NCBI GenBank assembly: GCA_016204975.1
Contig: JACQJP010000029.1
Coordinates: 1 to 33,802 of the forward strand
Source of the DNA: Elusimicrobiota bacterium
GTDB taxonomy: Bacteria; Elusimicrobiota; Elusimicrobia; JACQJP01
Direction: 5' to 3'
Length of the DNA: 33,802 bases
The stretch's first letter is position 1. Each line of letters opens with the position of its first letter. The notes below the pieces were generated by a model. The model was not told where the DNA came from and did not search any database. It worked only from the letters and a program-made list of their open reading frames with translations. This document shows positions 5,935-33,802 of the stretch, piece after piece. A program made the translations under genes and the position numbers.

Positions 5935-7227
5935 CTACCACCACTGCCCCTTCTCCGCAATACTCAAGAGGTAGGTGACCAGATCCTCCAGCTCCCGGCC
6001 TTGAATTTTATCTTTCCAAGGAGGCATATAGAGCGGGGGGATCGGCCCTTCCGGATTAAACTTGACCACGGCCGAGCTGGGCACGCCGTTGCGGATTTTC
6101 TCTTTGAGCTCCTCCCGCGTGTAGGTCCCCACGACTTTAGTCAGCGTGGGCTCAGCCCCCTGATCCATGCGGGTCTGGTCCGGTCCCAAGGCATTGAAGT
6201 TCCGGACTCCCCGGGCCCCCCCGATGCCGTGGCATCCCTGGCAGCCATACTTATGAAAGACATACCGCCCATGCTCTACGGGATTGGCAAAGCGGGGTTT
6301 GGGCTTGGGCGAGGCATAGACATAATACTCGTGGGGAACGGACTCGTGGCTTAAGGAGAGCAGATATGCGGTCAAGGCCTGTGCCTGGGACGGCTGGAGC
6401 TCCCGGTAGAAAGGAGGCATTCCGGAGGGGGGGATAGGCTCGCCAAATTTTCCCTGCGGGTCGTTGGGCACGATCTCCATGGGATCGCGGGTCAGGTGCA
6501 GCTCAATCCAGTTTTTTACAGACCACTCTTCCCGGGCAAGCCCGGTGTAAGAAAAATCAACGCGCCCCAGGGGTTTGTCCGCAACATCCCCCAAATCCAC
6601 CGAAACCGCGCCGCCCTCGCCGTTCACGGCGTGGCAACCGACGCAACCCAGCTTGTCAAACAGATCCTTCCCCAAAGCGGCGGCCTTCGCCCCAGGCAAC
6701 TCTTCGAAATTCACATGGCACCTAGCGCAAGAGGCCGCCAGATACGGAGGCTTCAGCAAGGGCCGTTCCCAATGGCGGACCGCCCCATGGGCCGCCGCCA
6801 CCTCGGTGGCCAGTCCCTGCCCCTGATGGCAGAGGGTACAGCCATACCGGGGAAAGGGATGGCTGGAGCTTAGCTTTCCCGGATGGGCCTGGTAAGGATT
6901 TTCCGTAAAGGAGTTGGTCAGGGAGGGATTGGCGAAAGGGTCCATCCCCACGTGGCAAGTGATGCAACGATCCACCCGGTCAAAATCCCGCAGGATGATC
7001 TGTCGGATCTGGAGCCCCATGGACCTCCATCTGCGAATCTCCTCCTGAATCCGCTCTCTTTTTCCCGGATCGGAACTCTGCGCGAGTTCCTGTTCCAGTC
7101 TCGCAATCTCCATCCGATAGTAACGGCTCTGATATTTTTTCCAGCCCCGCCGGGCGTCCTGCCGGATCGCCAGGAGAAAAAATGCCAAAAGGGAGAAATT
7201 GATCAGGTAGAAGAGTTTGCGAAGCAT
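5935..7227 (-). CDS. membrane-anchored pentaheme c-type cytochrome of the quinol oxidase complex
   Basis: 430 residues from ATG 7227; the ORF track's upstream start is TTG. One N-terminal transmembrane helix (LFYLINFSLLAFFLLAI) is followed by a charged helical stretch and then five CxxCH heme sites in order: CITCH, CTLCH, CARCH, CVGCH and CQGCH. The last two sit in cytochrome c-like domains with MPPFYREL and MPPWKDKI stretches that could supply axial methionines. It lies just after the cytochrome b gene, where a cytochrome c1 or f would be. It probably takes electrons from the Rieske protein, replacing c1 with a multiheme protein as seen in several anaerobic lineages. No ribosome-binding site is obvious. 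Confidence 0.88.
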   Translation of the reverse strand: MLRKLFYLINFSLLAFFLLAIRQDARRGWKKYQSRYYRMEIARLEQELAQSSDPGKRERIQEEIRRWRSMGLQIRQIILRDFDRVDRCITCHVGMDPFANPSLTNSFTENPYQAHPGKLSSSHPFPRYGCTLCHQGQGLATEVAAAHGAVRHWERPLLKPPYLAASCARCHVNFEELPGAKAAALGKDLFDKLGCVGCHAVNGEGGAVSVDLGDVADKPLGRVDFSYTGLAREEWSVKNWIELHLTRDPMEIVPNDPQGKFGEPIPPSGMPPFYRELQPSQAQALTAYLLSLSHESVPHEYYVYASPKPKPRFANPVEHGRYVFHKYGCQGCHGIGGARGVRNFNALGPDQTRMDQGAEPTLTKVVGTYTREELKEKIRNGVPSSAVVKFNPEGPIPPLYMPPWKDKIQGRELEDLVTYLLSIAEKGQWW

Positions 7228-7241
7228 TTGCAAAAGTCCAG

Positions 7242-8912
7242 CTAGATGTTGAAGTTATATTGAGGAAGGGCGAGGATATAATGGAGATTAAATCCCACCA
7301 TGGCCCCAATCTTCAGCACCACCCCCACCATCATCAAAAGAAACACCATCGCCGTCAGATACCGCGGCCAACTGAGGTCGCGGAGATATCTCTGCGGCAT
7401 AAGAAAGCCGAAGAGGTAATAGACAAAAAGGAAAAAGAAAAGTGCGGCCACCTGCCCCGCTGTGAAGCCAAAAAGATATATTGCGGCTCCCGCCGCCGCG
7501 GCAAATATCCAGTAGAAAATCACCGCGGGTTTGAAGGAAATCTCCCGCTGCAAAAACCTGGGCCCCAGAATCCCGAAACCAAAGTAAAAAAGAAGCAGCA
7601 ACGCCCCCGCCCACAGCGGAAGGTCCCAGGTGGGAGGGGGAGGCGCCTTGTGCACCAGCCAGCTCTCCCATGGCCAGTACCAGGCAAAGTTGGGCCCCCG
7701 ACAGAAATAGCCGATGAAGATGAGAACAAACCACAGGAGGATTCCAAACAGGAAGGTGGCAATGGCGAAGGGAGACTCCCTCCAGGCGTAATACCCCACC
7801 CCCTTGGGGTTGGGGTTCACATAGGGAATGGCCATCAGCCCCACGATGATGAGATTGGGGATCATCACCCCCGCAATCCAGGGGTCAAAATACCGCAGCA
7901 GCTCCTGAAGGCCCACAAAATACCAGGGGGCCTTGGAGGGATTGGGGGTGACCGTGGGGTTGGCCAGCTCCTCCAAGGGAGCGTTCTGCAGAATGCTCCA
8001 CAGCAAAATGAAAAGCACCGTAAAACCCGCCGCGACATATTCCCGCAAGACCAGATGAGGCCAGACCTCCACCTTCTCTTCGTCGGAGGCGCTGCTCAGA
8101 GGCGCGGCGGCCCCCTCCGCAGAGCTTCGGGGACCCGGAAGCGCCAGAGGCGCGGCGGAAAAGGAATCCTTCCGGATGCGCCAGAAATGGAGCATGATCA
8201 AGGCCCCCGCCACCAAGGGCACAAAGACGCAGTGCAAGACGTAAAAACGAAGCAGGGTATTTTCCCCCACCACGGTTCCCCCTAAAAGCACAAACCGCAC
8301 ATCGTTGGCGACGTGAACCCCCAACAAACTTGAGAAAGGACCCTCGTATCCCAGAAAGGGCGTGGCCGCGGCCAAGTTCGTACCCACCGTCACCGCCCAG
8401 ATGTCCAGTTGATCCCAGGGCAGCAGATACCCGGTAAAGGAAAGAAACAGAGTCAGCGTCAAAAGCAGCACCCCGATACACCAGTTGAACTCCCGGGGCT
8501 TTTTGTAGGCTCCGGTCAGATAAACCCGGATCATATGGAGGATGACCGCCACCAGCATCGCCTGCGCCGCCCAGCGGTGCGAGTTGCGCAGGAGCTTGCC
8601 GAGGGTGATCGCGAACTCCAGGTCCTTCATGTCCCGATAGGCCAACTCCATCGTCGGACGATAGTAGAACATGAGGAAAACGCCGGTGACCGTCAAAATC
8701 AAAAAGAGCAGAAAAGAAATCCCCCCCAGCCCCCAGGTGTAGGTCCACTGCAGGGCCCGGGGGCGGATGCGGACCGGATGCAGGTGCAGCCACAGATTGC
8801 CAATGACATGGCCGGCCCGATCCCTGGGGGTATCTTTCCAAATCCCACTCCGGAAGATGCTGCGCCAGATCTGGGAGTTGATGAGGGCGGCTTTGAGGTT
8901 GGGGAAATTCAT
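7242..8912 (-). CDS. cytochrome b subunit of a quinol:cytochrome c reductase (bc1/b6f type)
   Basis: 556 residues with many transmembrane helices. Two pairs of heme-ligand histidines are visible: NSHRW...ILHMI with 13 residues between, and VLHCV...MLHFW with 14 between. This 13/14 spacing is the b6f pattern rather than the 13/13 of mitochondrial bc1. GYLLPWDQ is conserved. The Qo-site region reads APWYF where PEWY is usual, so the common glutamate is replaced. N-terminal b6-like and C-terminal subunit IV-like parts are in one chain, followed by about three extra helices. A low-complexity loop after [10 protein letters not shown] carries a family-2 repeat in the antisense orientation. Together with the adjacent Rieske protein it should oxidise quinol and move protons. 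Confidence 0.92.
8097..8158 (+). repeat. family-2 in-frame repeat (copy B) inside cytochrome b, 14-bp direct repeats 48 bp apart
   Basis: CTCCGCAGAGCT at 8115-8126 is followed by GGGGACCCGG and a GCGCC-AGA-GGCGC hairpin. CAGAGGCGCGGCGG occurs exactly at 8097-8110 and again at 8145-8158, a period of 48 bp (16 codons). The host gene reads the opposite strand, giving [18 protein letters not shown] in a cytoplasmic-loop-like position between conserved cytochrome b helices. The insertion preserves the frame. Confidence 0.65.
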
Positions 8913-8918
8913 CTCCGG

Positions 8919-9392
8919 TTAGACAGATACGACAAAGGGAGGCCTCTCCCGAAGTCCGGGGCGATTCTCCAAAATGGCCCTGTCAATCATGAGATCCCCG
9001 GTGGAGGCCACCTCCACCCTGCACCGCCACAGAGGTTTGGGCGCGGGTCCTGCGATGACGTCTCCCCCCGGAGTAAAGTTGGATCCATGGCACGGGCAGC
9101 GGAAACGGTTCTGGTCGCTGAACCAATTGGGAGTGCATCCCAGATGAGTGCAGCGGGCCAAAAGGGCATACAGGAAACCTTCCTTCCGGACGACCCAAAT
9201 CCGCCAGGCGGTGGTCAACTGCGTGGAGACCCCCTCCGGAAACTCCGCGGCGGGCCCGGCATTGAACTTTTGGGAAGGCTCATAGATGACGTTGGGAAAC
9301 ATAAAACGCGCTGCGGCAGCCAGATTCCCCACTGCAAACGCCACCAGGGCCGCCCATCCGGCCCATAAAAAGCTTCGGCGCGTCACGTCCAT
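8919..9392 (-). CDS. Rieske [2Fe-2S] iron-sulfur protein of the quinol oxidase complex
   Basis: 157 residues from ATG 9392. The ORF track starts at a TTG (9416). The ATG gives MDVTRRSFLWAGW, a twin-arginine-like signal (TRRSFL) expected for a Rieske protein folded before export, with AGGTG just upstream. The hydrophobic stretch AALVAFAVGNLAAAARF is the membrane anchor. The cluster ligands are CTHLGC and CPCHGS, followed by the proline loop GPAPKPLWR. It is the first gene of the seven-gene minus-strand operon, 6 bp ahead of cytochrome b, and transfers electrons from quinol at the Qo site to the multiheme cytochrome. Confidence 0.93.
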   Translation of the reverse strand: MDVTRRSFLWAGWAALVAFAVGNLAAAARFMFPNVIYEPSQKFNAGPAAEFPEGVSTQLTTAWRIWVVRKEGFLYALLARCTHLGCTPNWFSDQNRFRCPCHGSNFTPGGDVIAGPAPKPLWRCRVEVASTGDLMIDRAILENRPGLRERPPFVVSV

Positions 9393-9400
9393 CACACCTA

Positions 9401-9429
9401 CTCTAACACATTCCAAAAAAAAATGTCAA
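9401..9429 (-). promoter_or_regulatory. candidate promoter for the respiratory operon
   Basis: On the minus strand, TTGACA (9429-9424) is followed after about 18 bp by TAGAGT, a 4/6 match to TATAAT. The -10 would lie only about 7 bp before the ATG at 9392, implying a nearly leaderless message, so this is a weak proposal. The divergent tilS gene starts at 9452, so promoters for both directions must fit in about 60 bp. Confidence 0.25.
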
Positions 9430-10213: not shown

Positions 10214-10723
10214 ATGGAGATCCTGTTGACGGCGGAGGCGATCCAAAAACGGGTGCGGGAGATGAGCGAAGAGATCTCCCGGGACTACCGTGGAAAAAAC
10301 CTGCTTTTGATCGGGGTTTTAAACGGAAGCTTCCTGTTTCTGGCGGATCTGGTCCGGAACCTTTCGATCCCTTGCGCGGTGGATTTCATCTCCTTGCAAT
10401 CTTATAACGGCGCCTCCTCCACCGGAGCGGTCCGAACCCTGCTGGACCTGCGCAGAGAGATCTCCGACTACTGCGCGCTCATCGTGGAGGACATCGTGGA
10501 CACAGGACTCACCCTCTCCTACCTATTGAATACCCTCCAGGCCCGGCGACCCAAATCTTTGGAGATTTGCGTCCTGGCGGACAAGGCCGAGTGCCGGAAG
10601 GTTCCCGTCCCCATCCGCTACGTCGGCTTTACCGTGCCCAACCGCTTCCTGGTCGGCTACGGTCTGGACTACGAGGGCCAATACCGCCAGTTGCCCTATA
10701 TCGGAGTCCTGGATGCGCCCTAA
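10214..10723 (+). CDS. hpt: hypoxanthine phosphoribosyltransferase
   Basis: 169 residues, a usual length for the family. The PRPP-binding loop is VEDIVDTGLTL (about residues 93-103) and the N-terminal LLIGVLNGSFLFLADL segment is typical. The C-terminal VGFTVPNRFLVGYGLDYEGQYRQLPYIGVL matches the family's base-binding end. It salvages hypoxanthine (and probably guanine) to the monophosphate in the cytoplasm. The tilS-hpt-ftsH order is a well-known bacterial arrangement. Its stop codon overlaps the ftsH start by 11 bases, indicating translational coupling. Confidence 0.93.
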   Translation: MEILLTAEAIQKRVREMSEEISRDYRGKNLLLIGVLNGSFLFLADLVRNLSIPCAVDFISLQSYNGASSTGAVRTLLDLRREISDYCALIVEDIVDTGLTLSYLLNTLQARRPKSLEICVLADKAECRKVPVPIRYVGFTVPNRFLVGYGLDYEGQYRQLPYIGVLDAP

Positions 10724-13700
10724 CTCTTCTCGAAACCTTTGGCAGTTGGTTCTGTGGGGGGTCGCCTTCCTCTTCCTAATAATGGCCTTTCAGAGCCTGC
10801 GCCAAGGCGACCAAGAAGATCAGATTCCCTACTCCCGATTCAAGCAACTCCTTCGTAAAAACCAAGTCCTCTCGGTCACCGTGGGCTCCGACAAGATCCA
10901 GGGCCAATACACATCGGAAAAGGGAGAAAGCAAAAAGTTCCGCACCGTCCCCCTGCCGGACTCCAAACTGGTGGAGGAGCTGGACGCCCATCAAGTCTCC
11001 AACTACTCCGGGGAGCCGGACAAGAGCTGGCTCATGAGCATCCTGATGAACGTCGGATGGATCTTTCTTTTTTTTCTTCTCTGGTGGTTTTTGATCGTCC
11101 GACAGGTCCAGATGGGGGGCAAGCAGGCGCTTTCCTTCGGGCGTTCCCGATCCAAAATGCAGAATACCAAAAAATCCAAGATCACCTTTGCGGATGTGGC
11201 GGGATGCGACGAGGCCAAGGAGGAGCTGCAGGAGATCATCGAGTTCCTGAAAAATCCGGCCAAGTTCCAAAAGCTGGGCGGCAAAATCCCGCGCGGGGTG
11301 CTTCTCTACGGCATACCCGGCACGGGCAAGACCTTGTTGGCCCGGGCCGTGGCCGGGGAGGCCGGGGTGCCGTTTTTCAGCTCCTCCGGCTCGGAATTTG
11401 TGGAGATGTTCGTGGGGGTCGGCGCTTCTGTCACCGGCGATACGCCGGTGCTCATCCGCAAAAACGGGCGAACCAGACTCTTGCCTATTGCAGAGTTTGT
11501 AGACGCCTACTACCGCGATGGGGAGCACAACAGGGCGATCCCTATTGAGGACGTCGAGACCTTGGGGTTTTTTGAGCGAGAGAGCAAGTTCAAGGGTTCA
11601 AAGAAAAAGACCTACTTTGGCGGCAGTCGCTGGATTCGGGTTTCGGAAGTGTTTCGCCACAAGGCAGGCAAGGTATTTGAGATTCATTACCTGGGAGGAC
11701 AGATCCGAACCACCGAAGACCACAGCATTTTCATACGCACACGCAACGGCATCCGAGCCGTGGCCACCCGCGACCTAAAACCAGGGGACCGGCTGGTTTG
11801 CTTGCCCTATCTCTCCCGCAAACTTCACCATCACCGAGACAAAAAGATCATTCCCTTCGAAATCCGTGGCCACTGCTGGGAGCAATCCTTTGAGCCCGTA
11901 GAGTTGCCGGTGTGGTCCGAGCCTCCCGAATGGGCGGAAAAGTATGCCTTTGCCATAAATCAAAAAGCCTTCCGGAGCCAGCACGCCATTGCCCAAGCAA
12001 TCGGCGTCTCTCAGGCCACGGTTGGAAACTGGCAGAGATTTTTTCACAAGCCACAGGCCCTCTCCGATCAGCGAGGCTTCAGTCGTATTCCGCAAAAGGT
12101 CATGCTTTCACCTCAACTTCTCACGCTCTTTGGACTCTACACCGCTGAAGGACGATCGAACGGCGGACCGGAATTTTGCTTCGGCGCTCACGAGTCGGCC
12201 CTTCACCAAGAAACCCTGCATCTTATGCGCCAGATATTCGGGGTGCAGGGGCGCGTGGAAACCACCGACACCAACTCGGTCCGCTTGCATTTTCCCCCTC
12301 CTTTGTTAGGAGAGTTCTTTGAATCTCACTGCGGCAACGGTGCCCACCACAAGCACGTACCTGAGTTTCTCTGGAATTGTCCCAGGGAATACTTTTTGGC
12401 CTACCTGGAAGGTTGGCTGAAGGGAGATGGATATGCCGCAGCCGATGGAAAACTCTCCGGCACCTCGGTCTCCAAGCGACTGATCAGGGAACTCCTCTGG
12501 CTGTGCTCGATGCACGGCATCAAAGCAGGCATGCGCAAGATGGTATTTCCTGCAGGCCGACAGATTCGTAAAAACGGAAAGCCACTCCCCGAGACGACCG
12601 CCTGGAACCTGATCCTCTCCAAGAGCTGGAACCCTTTCCGACCCGGCCCACAATCCCCACAATCTAAATCCCTCATTGTCCGCCGCGTCGTAGAAAAACC
12701 TCACGCGGGCTACGTCTATGACCTTTGCGGATGCGACGGCGAGGCGTTCTTCGGCGGGGACAAACCCATCCTCCTCCACAATAGTCGAGTGCGGGATCTT
12801 TTTGAGCAGGCCAAGAAAAACTCCCCGGCGGTCATCTTCGTGGATGAGTTGGATGCGGTCGGACGTTACCGCTTTGCGGGAATCGGTGGGGGCCACGACG
12901 AAAGAGAGCAGACCTTAAACCAGCTCCTGGTGGAGTTGGACGGCTTCGACACCAAGGAAGGGGTGATCTTTCTGGGCAGCACCAACCGCCCCGACGTCAT
13001 CGACCCCGCCCTGCTGCGCCCGGGACGCTTCGACCGGCACGTCAACATCCCCCCTCCGGACATCAAAGGCCGCGAACAGATATTGAAGGTGCACGCTAAA
13101 AAGATCAAGCTGGCCCCGGAGGCGGACCTCTCCATCATCGCCAGAAGGACCCCCGGCTTTGTGGGGGCGGATCTGGCCAACCTGGTCAACGAGGGGGCGC
13201 TCCTGGCCGCGCGGCGCAACAAGCCTGCCGTGGAGATGCCGGAGCTGGAGGAGGCCATTGACCGGGTGATGGCAGGCCCCCAGCGTAAAAGCCGCCTGAT
13301 CTCGGACAAGGAAAAAAAGATCGTGGCCTATCACGAGGCGGGCCACGCCCTGGTGGCGAAGCTCAGCGCCCACGCCGATCCGGTGCATAAGGTCTCCATC
13401 ATCCCCCGGGGACCCGCCCTGGGCTATACCCTGCAGCTGCCGACCGAAGACCGCCTGCTCAACACCCAGTCCCAACTCACCCACCGCATTCAGGTTCTGC
13501 TGGGAGGACGCTGCGCGGAGGAAGTCGTCTTTCTAAAGGAGATCACCACCGGCGCCCAGGACGACCTGGAAAAGGCCACCCACCTGGCCCACAAGATGGT
13601 GACGGAATTCGGAATGAGCCCGCTGGGTCCGGTGAGCTACAAAAGGCCGGACGGAGAGGTCTTTTTGGGGCGAGACCTGGTCAGGGAGAGAGGCCTTTCC

Positions 13701-13886
13701 GAAATGACCGCCTCCTCTATTGACCGGGAAGTCAAAAAACTTCTGGAAACCTGCTACCAGCAGGCGCGCGCCATTCTCTTGAAATACCGGGCTGCCTTGG
13801 ACGCCCTGGCCGCAAAGCTGGTGGAGCAGGAAGTGCTGGAAGGAAAGGATGTGGACTCCATCTTAAAAAACTACTCCCCCGCCTAA
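10713..13886 (+). CDS. ftsH: ATP-dependent zinc metalloprotease FtsH interrupted by an intein
   Basis: 1057 residues encoded; removing the 452-residue intein leaves about 605, normal for FtsH. The N-terminal helix ([18 protein letters not shown]) and a second helix ([16 protein letters not shown]) flank the periplasmic domain. The AAA Walker A is GIPGTGKT, the pore-loop region is EMFVGVGA, Walker B is VIFVDELDA, and the second region of homology ends [10 protein letters not shown]. The zinc site is HEAGH. FtsH degrades membrane and regulatory proteins at the inner membrane. The intein sits between Ala238 and the Ser of SRVRDLF, inside the AAA domain, so the protease should be inactive until splicing. 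The start overlaps hpt, and the stop overlaps folP as TAATG. Confidence 0.96.
11427..12782 (+). mobile_element. FtsH intein with LAGLIDADG homing endonuclease and helix-turn-helix segment
   Basis: 452 residues, FtsH positions 239-690. It starts with Ser1 in SVTGDTPVL (block A). TTEDHS is block B, with the conserved Thr and His. It ends in ILLHN (block G, His-Asn) followed by extein Ser+1. Block F is [17 protein letters not shown]. The endonuclease carries two LAGLIDADG-like helices, LFGLYTAEG (near residue 471) and [10 protein letters not shown] (near 564). Between the first splicing part and the endonuclease lies a helix-turn-helix-like stretch ([20 protein letters not shown], near 425), which could aid DNA recognition. 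All splice-junction residues are present, so splicing looks intact. The insertion point is a highly conserved codon run, as is typical for homing. Confidence 0.93.
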
Positions 13887-19529: not shown

Positions 19530-19949
19530 ATGAAAAAAAAAGCCCCCTGGGGAATCGGCATTGACATCGTGGAAATTAAGCGTATCCAAAGCCTAGCCCG
19601 ACGCAATGCGCGTTTTCTCTCTCGGGTCTTTACAGAGGAAGAAGTCCGCTACTGCAAAAGCAAAAGAAAAAAATGGCAGCATCTCGCGGTTCGATTCGCC
19701 GCCAAAGAAGCGGTCTGGAAGGCCCTGGGCCGCTATGCCCCTTCCCTGCGGAAGATCTCCATCCGCAACGACGCACAAGGAAAACCCATCGTCACCCTCC
19801 GCAGAGCTCCGGGTACCCGCCGGGGGCTCAGAGGGGCCCGGCGCGCCGGCACCCTCCGGCAGTCCCTTTCCCCCCAGGTGTGGATCTCTCTATCCCATTC
19901 CAATCACTACGCCGCCGCGGTGGCCTTGGCGGCAGGGTATGAAAAATAA
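19530..19949 (+). CDS. acpS: holo-[acyl-carrier-protein] synthase with a repeat-derived insertion
   Basis: 139 residues; the family is usually about 120-130. GIGIDIVEIKRI at the N-terminus and RFAAKEAVWKALG are the Mg2+/CoA-binding motifs. WISLSHSNHYAAAVAL is the conserved C-terminal segment. The enzyme transfers the phosphopantetheine arm from CoA to acyl carrier protein. Between GKPIVTL and SLSH lies an arginine/glycine-rich stretch (RRAPGTRRGLRGARRAGT) made by a family-2 repeat. The GKP-to-SLSH distance is about 40 residues against roughly 29 in typical members. The active-site motifs are intact, so it is probably functional. Confidence 0.9.
   Translation: MKKKAPWGIGIDIVEIKRIQSLARRNARFLSRVFTEEEVRYCKSKRKKWQHLAVRFAAKEAVWKALGRYAPSLRKISIRNDAQGKPIVTLRRAPGTRRGLRGARRAGTLRQSLSPQVWISLSHSNHYAAAVALAAGYEK
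19793..19858 (+). repeat. family-2 in-frame repeat (copy C) in acpS, 9-bp direct repeats 57 bp apart
   Basis: CACCCTCCG occurs at 19793-19801 and at 19850-19858, a period of 57 bp (19 codons). CTCCGCAGAGCT (19798-19809) starts the unit and is followed by GGGTACCC and an imperfect GCCGGG...CCCGGC hairpin. The acpS frame reads LRRAPGTRRGLRG; another frame of the same DNA reads SAELRVPAGG, which is the frame used by copy D in the gene at 32182. Confidence 0.6.
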
Positions 19950-27770: not shown

Positions 27771-28541
27771 ATGGAACAAATTCCACTGAAGGCGGAAGAA
27801 AGACCTACCGAAAAAAGGGCCTTCTTAAACCAGTTGAGAAAACAGGGGAGGGTTCCGGCAATCCTCTACGGCCACGGTCCCACCTTGGGCCTTGCGGTGG
27901 TGGAGAGGGATCTCTTGAAGGCCTTGCGGACCCGCGCCGGAACCAACGTGCTCATCAAACTGGAGCATCCCAAAGGCACAGACACCGTGATGTTGAAAGA
28001 GATCCAACACCATGTGGTCCACCACAAAATCCTTCACGTGGATTTTCAGCGCATCTCGCTCAAGGAGAAGATCGAAATCAAAGTCGCAGTGGAGGTGACC
28101 GGGGAGGCCCCGGGGGTGAAACTGCAGGGAGGGGTCCTGGAGCACTTGTTGCGGGAAATCTCCATCCGCTGCCTGCCCACAAAAATCCCGGACTCCGTCC
28201 CGGTGGACGTCTCGCACCTCGAGATCGGAAAACACATCAGCGTCGGGGACCTCGCCGTCCCGGAGGGCGTGGAGATCCTCCACGCGCCGGACCAGATCAT
28301 TGTCCATATCGTGGCTCCCACCAAGGTGGAGGAACCTCCAAAACCGGAAGAGGCGGCTCTGGCCTCAGAGGCCTCGGAGCCGGAGGTGATCGCCAGGGGC
28401 AAAAAGGAGGAGGAAGAAAAGCCTGAGGGAGCCCCCGCCAAGCCGCCGGCACTCCCCGATCGTAGTCGGGTCCCACAGGCCGCAGCCCCAGCCAAGCCCG
28501 ATCCCCCAAAAAAGGAAGGCCAGAAAGAGCCCAAAAAATAG
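27771..28541 (+). CDS. rplY: 50S ribosomal protein L25 (CTC/TL5 type) with a repeat in its tail
   Basis: 256 residues. The N-terminal L25 domain includes LRKQGRVPAILYG, the 5S rRNA-binding segment. The beta-rich CTC domain follows (about 95-190: KIEIKVAVEVTGEAPGVKLQGG...EISIRCLP...IPDSVPVDVS). The last 65 residues are a low-complexity acidic/proline/lysine tail. Within the tail a partial family-1 repeat is read as ALPDRSRVPQA. The ribosomal domains are untouched, so the tail insertion should be neutral. Confidence 0.94.
   Translation: MEQIPLKAEERPTEKRAFLNQLRKQGRVPAILYGHGPTLGLAVVERDLLKALRTRAGTNVLIKLEHPKGTDTVMLKEIQHHVVHHKILHVDFQRISLKEKIEIKVAVEVTGEAPGVKLQGGVLEHLLREISIRCLPTKIPDSVPVDVSHLEIGKHISVGDLAVPEGVEILHAPDQIIVHIVAPTKVEEPPKPEEAALASEASEPEVIARGKKEEEEKPEGAPAKPPALPDRSRVPQAAAPAKPDPPKKEGQKEPKK
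28445..28482 (+). repeat. family-1 palindromic element, partial copy in rplY
   Basis: GCCGGCACTCCCCGATCGTAGTCGGG and the following TCCCACAGGCCG match the family-1 core, with one change in the stem (C to T) that keeps a G-T pair. The left part (CCAAAGGCGTGTTGA) and the 10-bp flanking repeats are lost or diverged. It is read in frame a (ALPDRSRVPQA). Confidence 0.85.
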
Positions 28542-29167: not shown

Positions 29168-29490
29168 CCCGGACCTATTGCCTACTGAGCCTGCTGTTGG
29201 GTCTCGCCGGTCTGGGTTATCTTTACCGCATGGACCTCATCTGCCGCTTCCACGCCATTTTAAAAAACACCCTCCTTAACGACTCCGTCATTGCCCTGGA
29301 GCGAAGGAAAATCGGGCTCTTTTTGCTTTTCCTCTCCCTGTTTTTCCTATACAAGGCGCTGGCCCGGCCTGCGGGACCCGACTACGGTCGGGGAGTGCCG
29401 GCTCAACACGCCTTTGGGGCCCGGCCTGTGGGACCCGACTACGGTCGGGGAGTGCCGGCTCAACACGCCTTTGGGGCCCGGCCTCGATGA
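29164..29490 (+). CDS. small two-helix membrane protein whose C-terminus is a tandem palindromic repeat
   Basis: 108 residues from ATG 29164, inside the longer 29077 ORF. The start overlaps the pth stop as ATGA and the end overlaps pmbA the same way. Two hydrophobic helices (YCLLSLLLGLAGLGYLY and KIGLFLLFLSLFFLY) flank a basic loop. The last about 40 residues are two 19-residue copies of GPDYGRGVPAQHAFGARPV, produced entirely by family-1 elements in reverse orientation. The authentic protein probably ended near YKALARP. Function unknown. It may be a real gene, since both overlaps keep the coupling to its neighbours. Confidence 0.65.
   Translation: MTRTYCLLSLLLGLAGLGYLYRMDLICRFHAILKNTLLNDSVIALERRKIGLFLLFLSLFFLYKALARPAGPDYGRGVPAQHAFGARPVGPDYGRGVPAQHAFGARPR
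29361..29484 (-). repeat. two tandem family-1 palindromic elements, 57-bp period, 10-bp GGCCCGGCCT at each boundary
   Basis: GGCCCGGCCT occurs at 29361, 29418 and 29475, exactly 57 bp (19 codons) apart. Each 47-bp interior carries the perfect hairpin CCCGAC-TACG-GTCGGG (as read on the plus strand) and GCCGGCTCAACACGCC. The two units differ at one position (GCGGG against GTGGG). This is the best-preserved view of the full unit and shows its boundaries. Confidence 0.9.
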
Positions 29491-31473: not shown

Positions 31474-32096
31474 TTTGGTTCGACGGAGCTTCGCCAGATC
31501 TCCTCTTTTTTCTGCTGGAGCTGGTTGACCCAGCGAGCCACCACAAAAAGCCAGTCCGACAAACGATTCACATACCGGAGAGCCTCCGGGGAAACCTCCT
31601 CCGCTTCCCAAAGGCGTACCAGCGCCCTCTCCGCCCGGCGGCAGACGCAGCGGGCATGATGAAAGGAGGCTCCCACGGAACCCCCGCCAGGCAGGATGAA
31701 ATTCTTCAAGGGGGGAAGTTTTTCCGAATATTCGTCCATCTCCCTCTCCAGACGCTCAGTCGCCTGTGGGACCCGACTACGGTCGGGGAGTGCCGGCTCA
31801 ACATGCCTTTGGGGCCCGGCCTGTGGGGAAAGCGCCGCCCCCTTGCGGGAAGTTCCCGCGGGATCCGCCAACTCCGCACCCAACTCAAAAAGCTCTCCCT
31901 GAATCCCCTGGAGCCGTTGCCGCACATCCTCCCACGGCTCTCCCAAAGGGACTTGAGAGGTCAGAATCCCCAGCCAGGCATTCAGCTCATCTACCTCACC
32001 GTAGGCGGACACCCGCAAACCGCCCTTGGAGACCCGAACCCCCGTTAAAAGTCCCGTCTGCCCCCGGTCCCCCGTTTTCGTATAAATCTTTGTCAT
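31470..32096 (-). CDS. pduO: PduO-type ATP:cob(I)alamin adenosyltransferase with an internal repeat insertion
   Basis: 208 residues. The ATP-binding start TKIYTKTGDRGQTGLLTG and the C-terminal ARCVCRRAERALVRL and NRLSDWLFVVAR are signatures of this family. It makes adenosylcobalamin, which implies a B12-dependent enzyme elsewhere. Between LADPAGTS and the conserved ERLEREMDEYSEKLPPLKNFILPGG lies QAGPQRHVEPALPDRSRVPQ, the product of a family-1 element in a surface loop. Normal proteins of the family are about 180-190 residues. Catalytic segments are intact. Confidence 0.92.
   Translation of the reverse strand: MTKIYTKTGDRGQTGLLTGVRVSKGGLRVSAYGEVDELNAWLGILTSQVPLGEPWEDVRQRLQGIQGELFELGAELADPAGTSRKGAALSPQAGPQRHVEPALPDRSRVPQATERLEREMDEYSEKLPPLKNFILPGGGSVGASFHHARCVCRRAERALVRLWEAEEVSPEALRYVNRLSDWLFVVARWVNQLQQKKEEIWRSSVEPK
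31762..31822 (-). repeat. family-1 palindromic element in the pduO gene
   Basis: The plus strand reads GTGGGACCCGACTACGGTCGG, then GGAGTGCCGGCTCAACATGCC and TTTGGGGCCCGGCCT. Its right boundary is the intact 10-mer GGCCCGGCCT (31813-31822), and the left boundary is degenerate (CGCCT). The element has the same orientation as the gene and is read in frame a (VEPALPDRSRVPQA). Confidence 0.9.
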
Positions 32097-32131
32097 TTAG
32101 GGCAGCCCCCGGCCAGCCCCTTCTCTATAAG

Positions 32132-32159
32132 TTTACAAAAGTCCGGAAGATCATACAAA
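32132..32159 (+). promoter_or_regulatory. candidate promoter before the SAM hydrolase fusion gene
   Basis: TTTACA (32132-32137), a 16-bp spacer and TACAAA (32154-32159) lie in the 85-bp divergent gap, about 22 bp before ATG 32182. The surrounding sequence is locally AT-rich. It is a plausible sigma70-type pair but unproven. Confidence 0.3.
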
Positions 32160-32181
32160 ATTTGCTATCCTACTTCTCTCA

Positions 32182-33802
32182 ATGGGTTTCCCCATTGTCC
32201 TGCTGACGGACTTCGGCACCCAGGATCCTTACGTAGGCATCCTAAAAGGAGTTATCCTCCGGCAAAGCTCTAAAAACCCACTCATCGATCTCACCCATGA
32301 AGTCCCCCCACAGGACGTTTCCAGCGCCGCCTACATCCTGTTGACCAGCTTCCAGTTCTTCCCCCAAAATACCCTCTTCATGGTGGTTGTGGATCCCGGG
32401 GTGGGGACCCGGAGAAAAATTCTGTATGTGCGAACTGCCCGCCACCAGTTTTTGGCGCCGGACAACGGCGTCCTCACTTGGGCCCTGCAGAAGGAAGACA
32501 TCCACCAGATCCTATCGGTGGAAAATAAAGACCTATTTCTTTCCCCCTTAAGTCAAACCTTTCACGGAAGGGATATCTTCGCCCCCGTGGCCGCCGCATT
32601 GGCTGGGGGCCTCCCCTTTAGCGAGCTAGGCCCCCCCACTGCCCTGCAGCAGACCCTCCCCTTTCCCCAGCCCCAACGCCATCAGAGGGGCTGGCGGGGA
32701 GAAGTCCTCCACATTGACCGATTCGGAAACCTGGTGACCAACCTCACCCGGCAGGAGCTCGCCTCGCTTTCCAAGCCCGTCCTGCAAATCGGCAGGCACC
32801 GCATCCACGGACTTTCCCACTCCTACCAAGAGACTCCCAAAGGGAAAGCCCTGGCCCTCCTCGGCTCCTCCGGCTTTCTGGAGCTCTCCCTCTGCCAGGG
32901 AAACGCCCAAAAAAACCTCCGGGCTCGCCGGGGGACCCCCGTTTTTTTACGCTCTTGGCTCTCCATCCTCTGCCTTAGCCTGTGTGCCCCAGCTCTTCCC
33001 ACCTGCGCACTCTCCGCAGAGCTACGAGTACCGGCCGGGGGGCCAGCGGCCCCCACCGTGCCGGAGGGCCCCATCGTGCCGGCACACTGGGCGGAGGAGA
33101 TATTCCAAAAACACTCCGTCTTCTGGGACGGCAATCGCACGGACCCCACCACCTCTGCGCACGACCAGCAAGATGCCACCGCAGCAAACCATTGGATGCC
33201 GGGCCCCAAAAGCGTGTTGAGCCGGCACTCCCCGACCGTAGTCGGGTCCCGCAGGCCGGGCAGCCGCAGAGGTGGCGGGGCCTCCGCCGCACTGCTGCTG
33301 GCTCAGGCCCAAACCCCCAAACCATCCATCTGGGTGCAAGATCCTTGGGACACCCCATGGAGAACAGAGAAGCAGCTGCAACTTCTAAAGGAGAAACAGC
33401 CCTCCTCCGGCTTTCGCTTCGCGGTGGTGGGAGACTCCCGCCCGGAGTGGCACCGCAGCATCATCTATCCCGCGCGCCTCATCTCCAAAACTCCGCTCTT
33501 GAAGAACCTCCCCCTCCTTCGAGGCGCTCCCACCTACCTGCCGGAGGTGTCCGAGCGGGTCTTTGAGCGGTTTTTGGAGCAGATCAAAAAATCTCAGGTA
33601 GATTTCACCATGCACCTGGGGGACCTGGTGACCCGGGGCCGGGAAGAAGAGTATCTCACTTTCCTAAATCAACTGAGCCGCCGTGCCCCGACCCCCTTTC
33701 TGACCACCATCGGCAACCACGAGCTCACGCGGGCCGGACCCCAAAGGCGTGTGGAGCCGGCACTCCCCGACCGTAGTCGGGTCCCGCAGGCCGGGCCCCA
33801 AA
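32182..33802 (+). CDS. SAM hydrolase (DUF62) domain fused in frame to a metallophosphoesterase domain (3' end outside window)
   Basis: The frame is open from ATG 32182 to the window edge (540 codons), which is why the ORF track misses it. Residues 1-257 are a complete S-adenosyl-L-methionine hydroxide adenosyltransferase: LLTDFGTQDPYVGILKGVIL, VVVDPGVGTRR, APDNGVLTW, FHGRDIFAPVAAALA, IDRFGNLVTNL. Then comes a hydrophobic signal-like segment (SWLSILCLSLCAPALPTCALSA) and a long linker holding one family-2 and one family-1 repeat. A metallophosphoesterase domain follows (FRFAVVGDSRPE, MHLGDLVTRGRE, TTIGNHE). A second family-1 element lies right after GNHE. No ATG, GTG or TTG begins the second domain near the signal segment, so either the fusion is real or a stop/start was lost. 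Confidence 0.85.
   Translation, partial: MGFPIVLLTDFGTQDPYVGILKGVILRQSSKNPLIDLTHEVPPQDVSSAAYILLTSFQFFPQNTLFMVVVDPGVGTRRKILYVRTARHQFLAPDNGVLTWALQKEDIHQILSVENKDLFLSPLSQTFHGRDIFAPVAAALAGGLPFSELGPPTALQQTLPFPQPQRHQRGWRGEVLHIDRFGNLVTNLTRQELASLSKPVLQIGRHRIHGLSHSYQETPKGKALALLGSSGFLELSLCQGNAQKNLRARRGTPVFLRSWLSILCLSLCAPALPTCALSAELRVPAGGPAAPTVPEGPIVPAHWAEEIFQKHSVFWDGNRTDPTTSAHDQQDATAANHWMPGPKSVLSRHSPTVVGSRRPGSRRGGGASAALLLAQAQTPKPSIWVQDPWDTPWRTEKQLQLLKEKQPSSGFRFAVVGDSRPEWHRSIIYPARLISKTPLLKNLPLLRGAPTYLPEVSERVFERFLEQIKKSQVDFTMHLGDLVTRGREEEYLTFLNQLSRRAPTPFLTTIGNHELTRAGPQRRVEPALPDRSRVPQAGPQ
33012..33082 (+). repeat. family-2 in-frame repeat (copy D) in the fusion gene linker
   Basis: CTCCGCAGAGCT (33012-33023) is followed by a GAGTACCGGCC stretch, then the hairpin GGGGGCC-AGC-GGCCCCC. 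CGTGCCGG is repeated at 33057 and 33075, 18 bp apart. The frame read is SAELRVPAGGPAAP. The left and right outer boundaries are not clear. Confidence 0.5.
33198..33261 (+). repeat. family-1 palindromic element in the fusion gene, read in frame b
   Basis: The 47-bp interior (33206-33252) is full length and ends in CCCGACCGTAGTCGGGTCCCGC. It is bounded by GCCGGGCC on the left and AGGCCGGGC on the right. Here the host frame gives SRHSPTVVGSRRPG, different from the ALPDRSRVPQA frame of the other forward copies, and still without a stop codon. Confidence 0.92.
33731..33802 (+). repeat. family-1 palindromic element at the right edge of the window
   Basis: The left 10-mer GGGCCGGACC (33731-33740) is a variant of AGGCCGGGCC. 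The interior (33741-33787) is complete, and the right 10-mer AGGCCGGGCC (33788-33797) is intact. The next five bases, CCAAA, match the start of another unit, so a tandem copy may continue beyond the window. It is read in frame a (VEPALPDRSRVPQAGPQ), immediately after the GNHE metal-binding motif of the phosphoesterase. Confidence 0.92.

Follow-up and report, generated by a model that had tools for sequence, protein, structure and literature searches.

A small non-autonomous mobile element has very likely left an in-frame copy in cytochrome b of an Elusimicrobiota bacterium, in the linker between the two Pfam halves of the protein and after the split of this lineage from its sampled relatives. 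The gene lies in the window, i.e. the whole stretch of 33,802 nucleotides analysed here, which is one contig (C6) of a 1.5-Mb draft genome of 55 contigs and 87% completeness. As to its identity, the cytochrome b feature is explained as one of many dispersed copies of a frame-compatible hairpin element, lying here in frame. The element belongs to a family of very small, hairpin-forming mobile repeats that has not been described before and has roughly 80-95 copies in this genome, often in frame within essential genes, whose proteins become longer and are not broken; a literature search for such repeats in Elusimicrobia, which misses most subscription papers, found none. The family itself, the in-frame insertion, the empty sites in relatives and a change of 57-bp tandem copy number in a sister pair were all observed directly.

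The host gene at 7242-8912 (minus strand) was identified by Pfam as cytochrome b of the long fused b6/subunit IV type (556 aa), with PF00033 covering residues 57-248 and PF00032 starting from residue 317. It lies in a Rieske / cytochrome b / cytochrome c operon, between the genes of a Rieske protein (8919-9416) and of a cytochrome c (5935-7233) with two cytochrome c domain matches. The host named in the original prediction is confirmed. The protein is 60-71% identical to its same-class homologues, and the named homologues are mostly Elusimicrobia metagenome bins, many of them from groundwater. In a weak AlphaFold model (mean pLDDT 61.7), the insert region at residues 253-277 is predicted with pLDDT below 50 as a coil between the helices 217-251 and 286-308, which suggests a linker and proves nothing.

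The 14-mer CAGAGGCGCGGCGG is present in exactly two copies, at 8097-8110 and 8145-8158, and their start-to-start distance is 48 bp. The perfect direct repeats that had been reported are therefore real; allowing two or fewer mismatches added one further, unrelated site in the window. A core of 34 bp (8111-8144, plus strand) lies between them. The 48 bp given earlier as the insert size holds for the repeat spacing and not for the insert, because alignment with 20 relatives and the loop lengths at 26 further loci showed a true excess of 54 bp or 18 codons (8091-8144, minus strand). This excess consists of 48 bp (8097-8144) and two extra codons, GCTGCT (8091-8096), and it does lie between the two protein motifs that had been named.

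Relatives lack this insertion. The loop between WRIRK and the WP motif comprises 33 residues in the window protein; of the 26 readable loci of the genome collection, 23 have a loop of 15 residues, two have 11 and the last has 18. The additional loop was absent from all 20 same-class Elusimicrobia homologues (full or nearly full) and from every further readable relative, including cytochrome b of genomes that bear the element elsewhere (G001, G002, G008, G010, G011, G017 and G019). Relatives read DSFSAAPx-xxx-EEK, with a single FSAAPL motif and EEK directly after it, and SAAP is kept in nearly all readable Elusimicrobia relatives. The minus strand of the right 14-mer (8145-8158, plus strand) encodes the native AAPL of FSAAPL; the left 14-mer (8097-8110, plus strand) is absent from relatives and is the duplicated copy. 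The empty site proposed as a check was found with a single copy of the motif, for which the closest DNA matches to the 14-mer are 13/14 (L026) and 12/14 (L013 and L020). At about 70% identity in cytochrome b, even the nearest sampled relative offers no close nucleotide-level empty site at this locus. The place was also rightly judged to tolerate length change: it is an inter-domain linker, with a loop of 11, 15 or 18 residues in relatives, and the insertion in it is lineage-specific and in frame.

The core had been assigned to a repeat family, and it indeed recurs throughout its own genome, at 41 places by BLAST with the core region and at 95 places by covariance model at E <= 1 (about 83 at E <= 1e-3). 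Alignment of the BLAST places gave a standard 61-bp element, e.g. CTAGCACCCTCCGCAGAGCTTCGGGTACCAGCCGGACTCGCAGAGCTCGCCAACGTGCTAG, with CTAG or CCGG-like ends. Because tandem neighbours are spaced exactly 57 bp and have the 4-bp CYRG end in common, the unit is 57 bp (19 codons), and this tandem period was seen in four genomes. Exactly 61 bp (57 plus the shared 4, hence unit 57) was found for 63 of the 83 tabulated copies. Other unit lengths were 60 bp in four copies, 105 bp in four and 56, 58 or 59 bp in a few, and some of the short lengths in the table are covariance-model truncations; a 48-bp unit (49 by model ends) characterises the cytochrome b and L002 copies. The family is patchily spread: of 147 genomes of the class Elusimicrobia, nine others were found to bear copies.

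Each standard unit contains two adjacent hairpins between CYRG ends, and the ends read CTAGCAC...GTGCTAG or CCGGCAC...GTGCCGG. The first CYRG end is followed by hairpin 1 (CACCC-CGCAGAGC-GGGTA), hairpin 2 (variable stem, AGA loop) and the second CYRG end. Covariation supported these stems, above all hairpin 2, as 7 of 17 pairs had changed on both sides with pairing kept. As single-stranded DNA, a canonical copy folds into an outer stem and two inner hairpins (z -2.5). Four of the six frames are stop-free in at least 58 of 63 copies, compared with 74% expected for random sequence of the same composition.

Larger arrangements were seen as well. The 105-bp variants (G000:C41:1358-1466, C37:6883-6991, C9:4900-5008 and C25:45582-45690) have an extra 48-bp hairpin block within the unit, and one of them is in frame in a fatty acid transporter. 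At G000:C25:41217-41313 (L054/L109), one element is nested in a second one, within its hairpin loop. The G008/G017 genus is also rich in a longer repeat (L140, L145, L154, L158, L159), which measures about 308 bp and includes the 57-bp element with TTGC/CTTG ends.

The cytochrome b copy itself (8107-8159, plus strand) was matched at full length by covariance model R1 (E 2.6e-6, 40 bits) and belongs to the shortened 48-bp-unit subtype. Its second hairpin, GCGCC-AGA-GGCGC (8141-8153, plus strand), straddles the core and the right 14-mer; it is seen in the sequence and supported by family covariation and by the paralogues L002, L004 and L106. Because this copy folds no better than shuffles (z about +0.6) and the canonical CYRG right end is missing, it is degenerate.

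Insertion in frame is a habit of the family, as at least ten conserved genes are interrupted in this way, either within a conserved domain or in the stretch between two domains of the same gene. Comparison with solved structures confirmed host and in-frame insert in the case of HemC, glyoxylate reductase/PGDH and AcpS. Pfam matches around the insert confirmed it in RluD, ComEC, MnmA, zinc alcohol dehydrogenase, Obg and DnaX (linker), and likewise in a short-chain fatty acid transporter with about 35 extra residues. A mechanical scan put 58 of 83 copies inside open frames of at least 120 codons, although such placement alone is no evidence of a gene. Since unit lengths are mostly multiples of three and frames are mostly stop-free, the element can extend proteins by 16-35 residues at tolerant places. 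We also considered a shuffled protein domain, which was ruled out because the frame and orientation in which the element is read vary from gene to gene.

At L043 (G000:C48:23939-24056), a CTP synthase-like open frame ends, at its extreme C-terminus, in two 57-bp units in tandem. At L004 (G000:C36:5780), what looks like the start of an alanine-racemase-like gene is overlapped by a copy of the cytochrome b subtype, from which the start codon may come.

The window contains two more copies of the element, both on the plus strand. One is a standard 57-bp unit in frame in holo-ACP synthase (19789-19849), with the 9-bp flanking repeat CACCCTCCG at 57 bp; the other is in frame after a SAM hydroxide adenosyltransferase domain (33004-33064). 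A second repeat family (GCCGGCACTCCCCGACCGTAGTCGGGTCCCGCAGGCC...) was found at 29367-29489, 31762-31827, 33198-33261, 33733-33796 and 28445-28482, and its tandem spacing is exactly 57 bp too, with CCGG-type ends. The shared spacing and ends suggest a superfamily of 57-bp units. In the open frame 32131-33801, the SAM hydroxide adenosyltransferase is joined to a calcineurin-like phosphoesterase domain, and the junction stretch holds both repeat families (33004-33064 and 33198-33261); the frame looks like two genes fused through these repeats. Elsewhere in the window, FtsH (10713-13886) is 1057 aa long, the match to its AAA domain is split into two stretches, and its residues 255-690 gave a weak Intein_splicing match (30.6 bits, cut-off 35.8). 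An intein in ftsH is probable.

Presence and absence of the element were compared in the sister genomes G008 and G017, which belong to one genus. Two filled/empty pairs were found at nucleotide level: a filled site in G017 (C133:20210) is empty in G008 (C198), and a filled site in G008 (C206:18518) is empty in G017 (C74), the latter pair with a 5-bp CTCCG repeat at the junction. Both filled/empty pairs concern longer composites of about 105-111 bp that contain the 57-bp unit, not the bare unit. Copy number also differs at a further locus, where a single unit in G008 corresponds to an array of about three in G017, one of them with an internal deletion. G017 orthologs of the G008 loci L155 and L156 were sought for empty sites and were not found. 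Comparison of L148 with L162 further revealed a 94-bp segment in G017 with the ends TGTAGTGA...TCACTACA, located between two nearly identical element copies, with CTAG on either side of it; in G008 the segment is missing and the element is present once. The segment resembles a MITE whose target would be CTAG.

Junction repeats of the family vary in length. Among the 63 standard copies, the flanking repeat is shorter than 10 bp in 52, and CTAG-ended copies mostly have 4-5 bp (the shared CTAG). Repeats of 10-19 bp flank the remaining 11 copies. Their offset is exactly 57 bp in every case (against 0.07% for any other offset), and their sequence is that of the head or tail of the element. When flanks were swapped between copies, 6% still reached 10 bp, compared with 17% observed. 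Long junction repeats are hence partly remnants of neighbouring copies (fractional tandem arrays), and the rest match the resident copy specifically. The right 14-mer in cytochrome b is native, yet half of it is also a hairpin arm of the element, and the paralogue L004 shares the 15-mer CAGAGGCGCGGCGGA, in unchanged register but with no left copy beside it.

A target duplication of constant length was rejected as a family rule, as no fixed length is kept across copies; a 14-bp duplication is possible for the cytochrome b copy alone. Because the family shows no fixed length, its long repeats occur at one period and the right 14-mer overlaps hairpin 2, a classic fixed-length duplication is unsupported, and a homology-associated or fractional tandem junction fits better. 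Of the target-duplication footprint originally proposed, the empty site with its single motif copy is supported, and a classic duplication of defined length is not.

Under the preferred reading of a mobile-element insertion, the target segment in cytochrome b would already have resembled the hairpin arm of the element (CAGAGGCGC). Addition of one period beside this segment would then have duplicated the 14-mer, and the joining or copying may have been assisted by short homology, instead of depending on a transposase that makes staggered cuts of fixed length. We can only tentatively, and with considerable doubt, extend this to a transposase-independent mobile hairpin. Any target with a short stretch in common with some part of the element would then receive exactly one period (57, 48 or 105 bp), as though the template were circular or tandem. 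If so, its junctions would be circularly permuted and always frame-preserving, and the element would be a specialised in-frame protein-extending parasite.

A classic MITE appears unlikely, i.e. a 34-bp element whose insertion by a transposase of this or a past genome duplicated 14 bp of target site. It would account for a core between perfect 14-bp direct repeats that are single in relatives, and it would agree with the terminal inverted repeats of canonical copies (CTAGCAC/GTGCTAG), with the CTCCG junction repeat in one sister pair and with the Yersinia YPAL element, whose duplications vary from 3 to 26 bp (PMC2229807). However, family copies elsewhere show 4-5 bp (CTAG) or element-derived repeats instead of a 14-bp target, the 34-bp core has no terminal inverted repeats, and the right 14-mer overlaps the element hairpin and recurs in L004. 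Moreover, neither an IS200/IS605 (PF01797) nor an IS630 (PF13358) transposase, the two families searched as partners for the element, was found in the 87%-complete genome.

Local slippage, by which a tandem duplication of native cytochrome b DNA produced both 14-mers and the segment between them, is very improbable. Short-range direct repeats are typical of slippage, and GGAGGCGCTGCT beside CAGAGGCGCGGC (8085-8108) resembles a small imperfect tandem that may account for the two extra codons, but the 34-bp core is absent from every relative, and slippage of native DNA is refuted for the core because core copies are dispersed through the genome. There is even less reason to read the covarying stems as a structured RNA or regulatory site (attenuator, terminator or protein-binding site) kept by selection and not mobile. 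The window matched Rfam at the gathering threshold in a tRNA only, and copies occur in both orientations and several frames of unrelated coding sequences, form tandem and nested arrays, and are present or absent between sister genomes. An assembly or binning artefact by repeat-driven misjoins is scarcely credible: the genome is a metagenome-derived draft in many contigs and short repeats mislead assemblers, but ten or more conserved host genes stay open and in frame across the insert, and the element with its 57-bp period is also present in independently assembled genomes.

Among known systems, Rickettsia palindromic elements (RPE; described by Ogata et al. 2000) come nearest as a precedent; they are 105-150 bp long and dispersed, and with high frequency they lie in frame in unrelated conserved genes (PMC2229807, PMC10969869). 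Both are small palindromic dispersed repeats that are intergenic as well as in frame within unrelated conserved genes, at least ten of them for the Elusimicrobia element. However, RPEs of about 105-150 bp have one long stem-loop, whereas the Elusimicrobia unit is G+C-rich and only 57 bp long, with two hairpins, CYRG ends and exact 57-bp tandem arrays; its 105-bp variants are rare (4 of 83). By size and build, the Elusimicrobia element is taken as a different family.

Bacterial MITEs (Correia/NEMIS, RUP, ERIC, YPAL/RU-2) are likewise short, dispersed and stem-loop forming. Canonical copies of the Elusimicrobia element share their terminal inverted repeats (CTAGCAC/GTGCTAG or CCGGCAC/GTGCCGG), which the cytochrome b copy lacks, and YPAL is likewise accompanied by duplications of variable length (3-26 bp). 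The Elusimicrobia element differs in being shorter, in its frame-compatible period, in that neither of the two transposase families searched yielded a parental transposase, and in showing no target duplication of fixed length: CYRG is common to both ends, a 5-bp repeat occurs in one sister pair, and lengths are not constant. REP/REPIN sequences, moved by RAYT (IS200/IS605-like), are also short palindromes of high copy number in singlets and tandem arrays, but REPs are named for their extragenic position, whereas the Elusimicrobia element is commonly within genes. Membership of the REP/RAYT system fails because the Y1 transposase is absent: the RAYT/IS200-type family PF01797 gave no match in the own genome and did give matches in control genomes. 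The repetitive hairpin-forming and double-hairpin elements known in organelle genomes, e.g. the RHE of sponge mitochondria (PMC2800124), resemble this family as dispersed hairpin-forming repeats with hairpin DNA as the recognisable unit, but they are organellar and non-bacterial, with no known homology.

Selfish palindromes that frequently spread in frame through conserved genes are documented chiefly for Rickettsia, with one Wolbachia report (PMC2229807, PMC10969869). The sister genomes with filled and empty sites provide a test bed for how such elements move. An apparently independent family in groundwater Elusimicrobia, with a period of exactly 19 codons, would show that such spread does not depend on an intracellular lifestyle.
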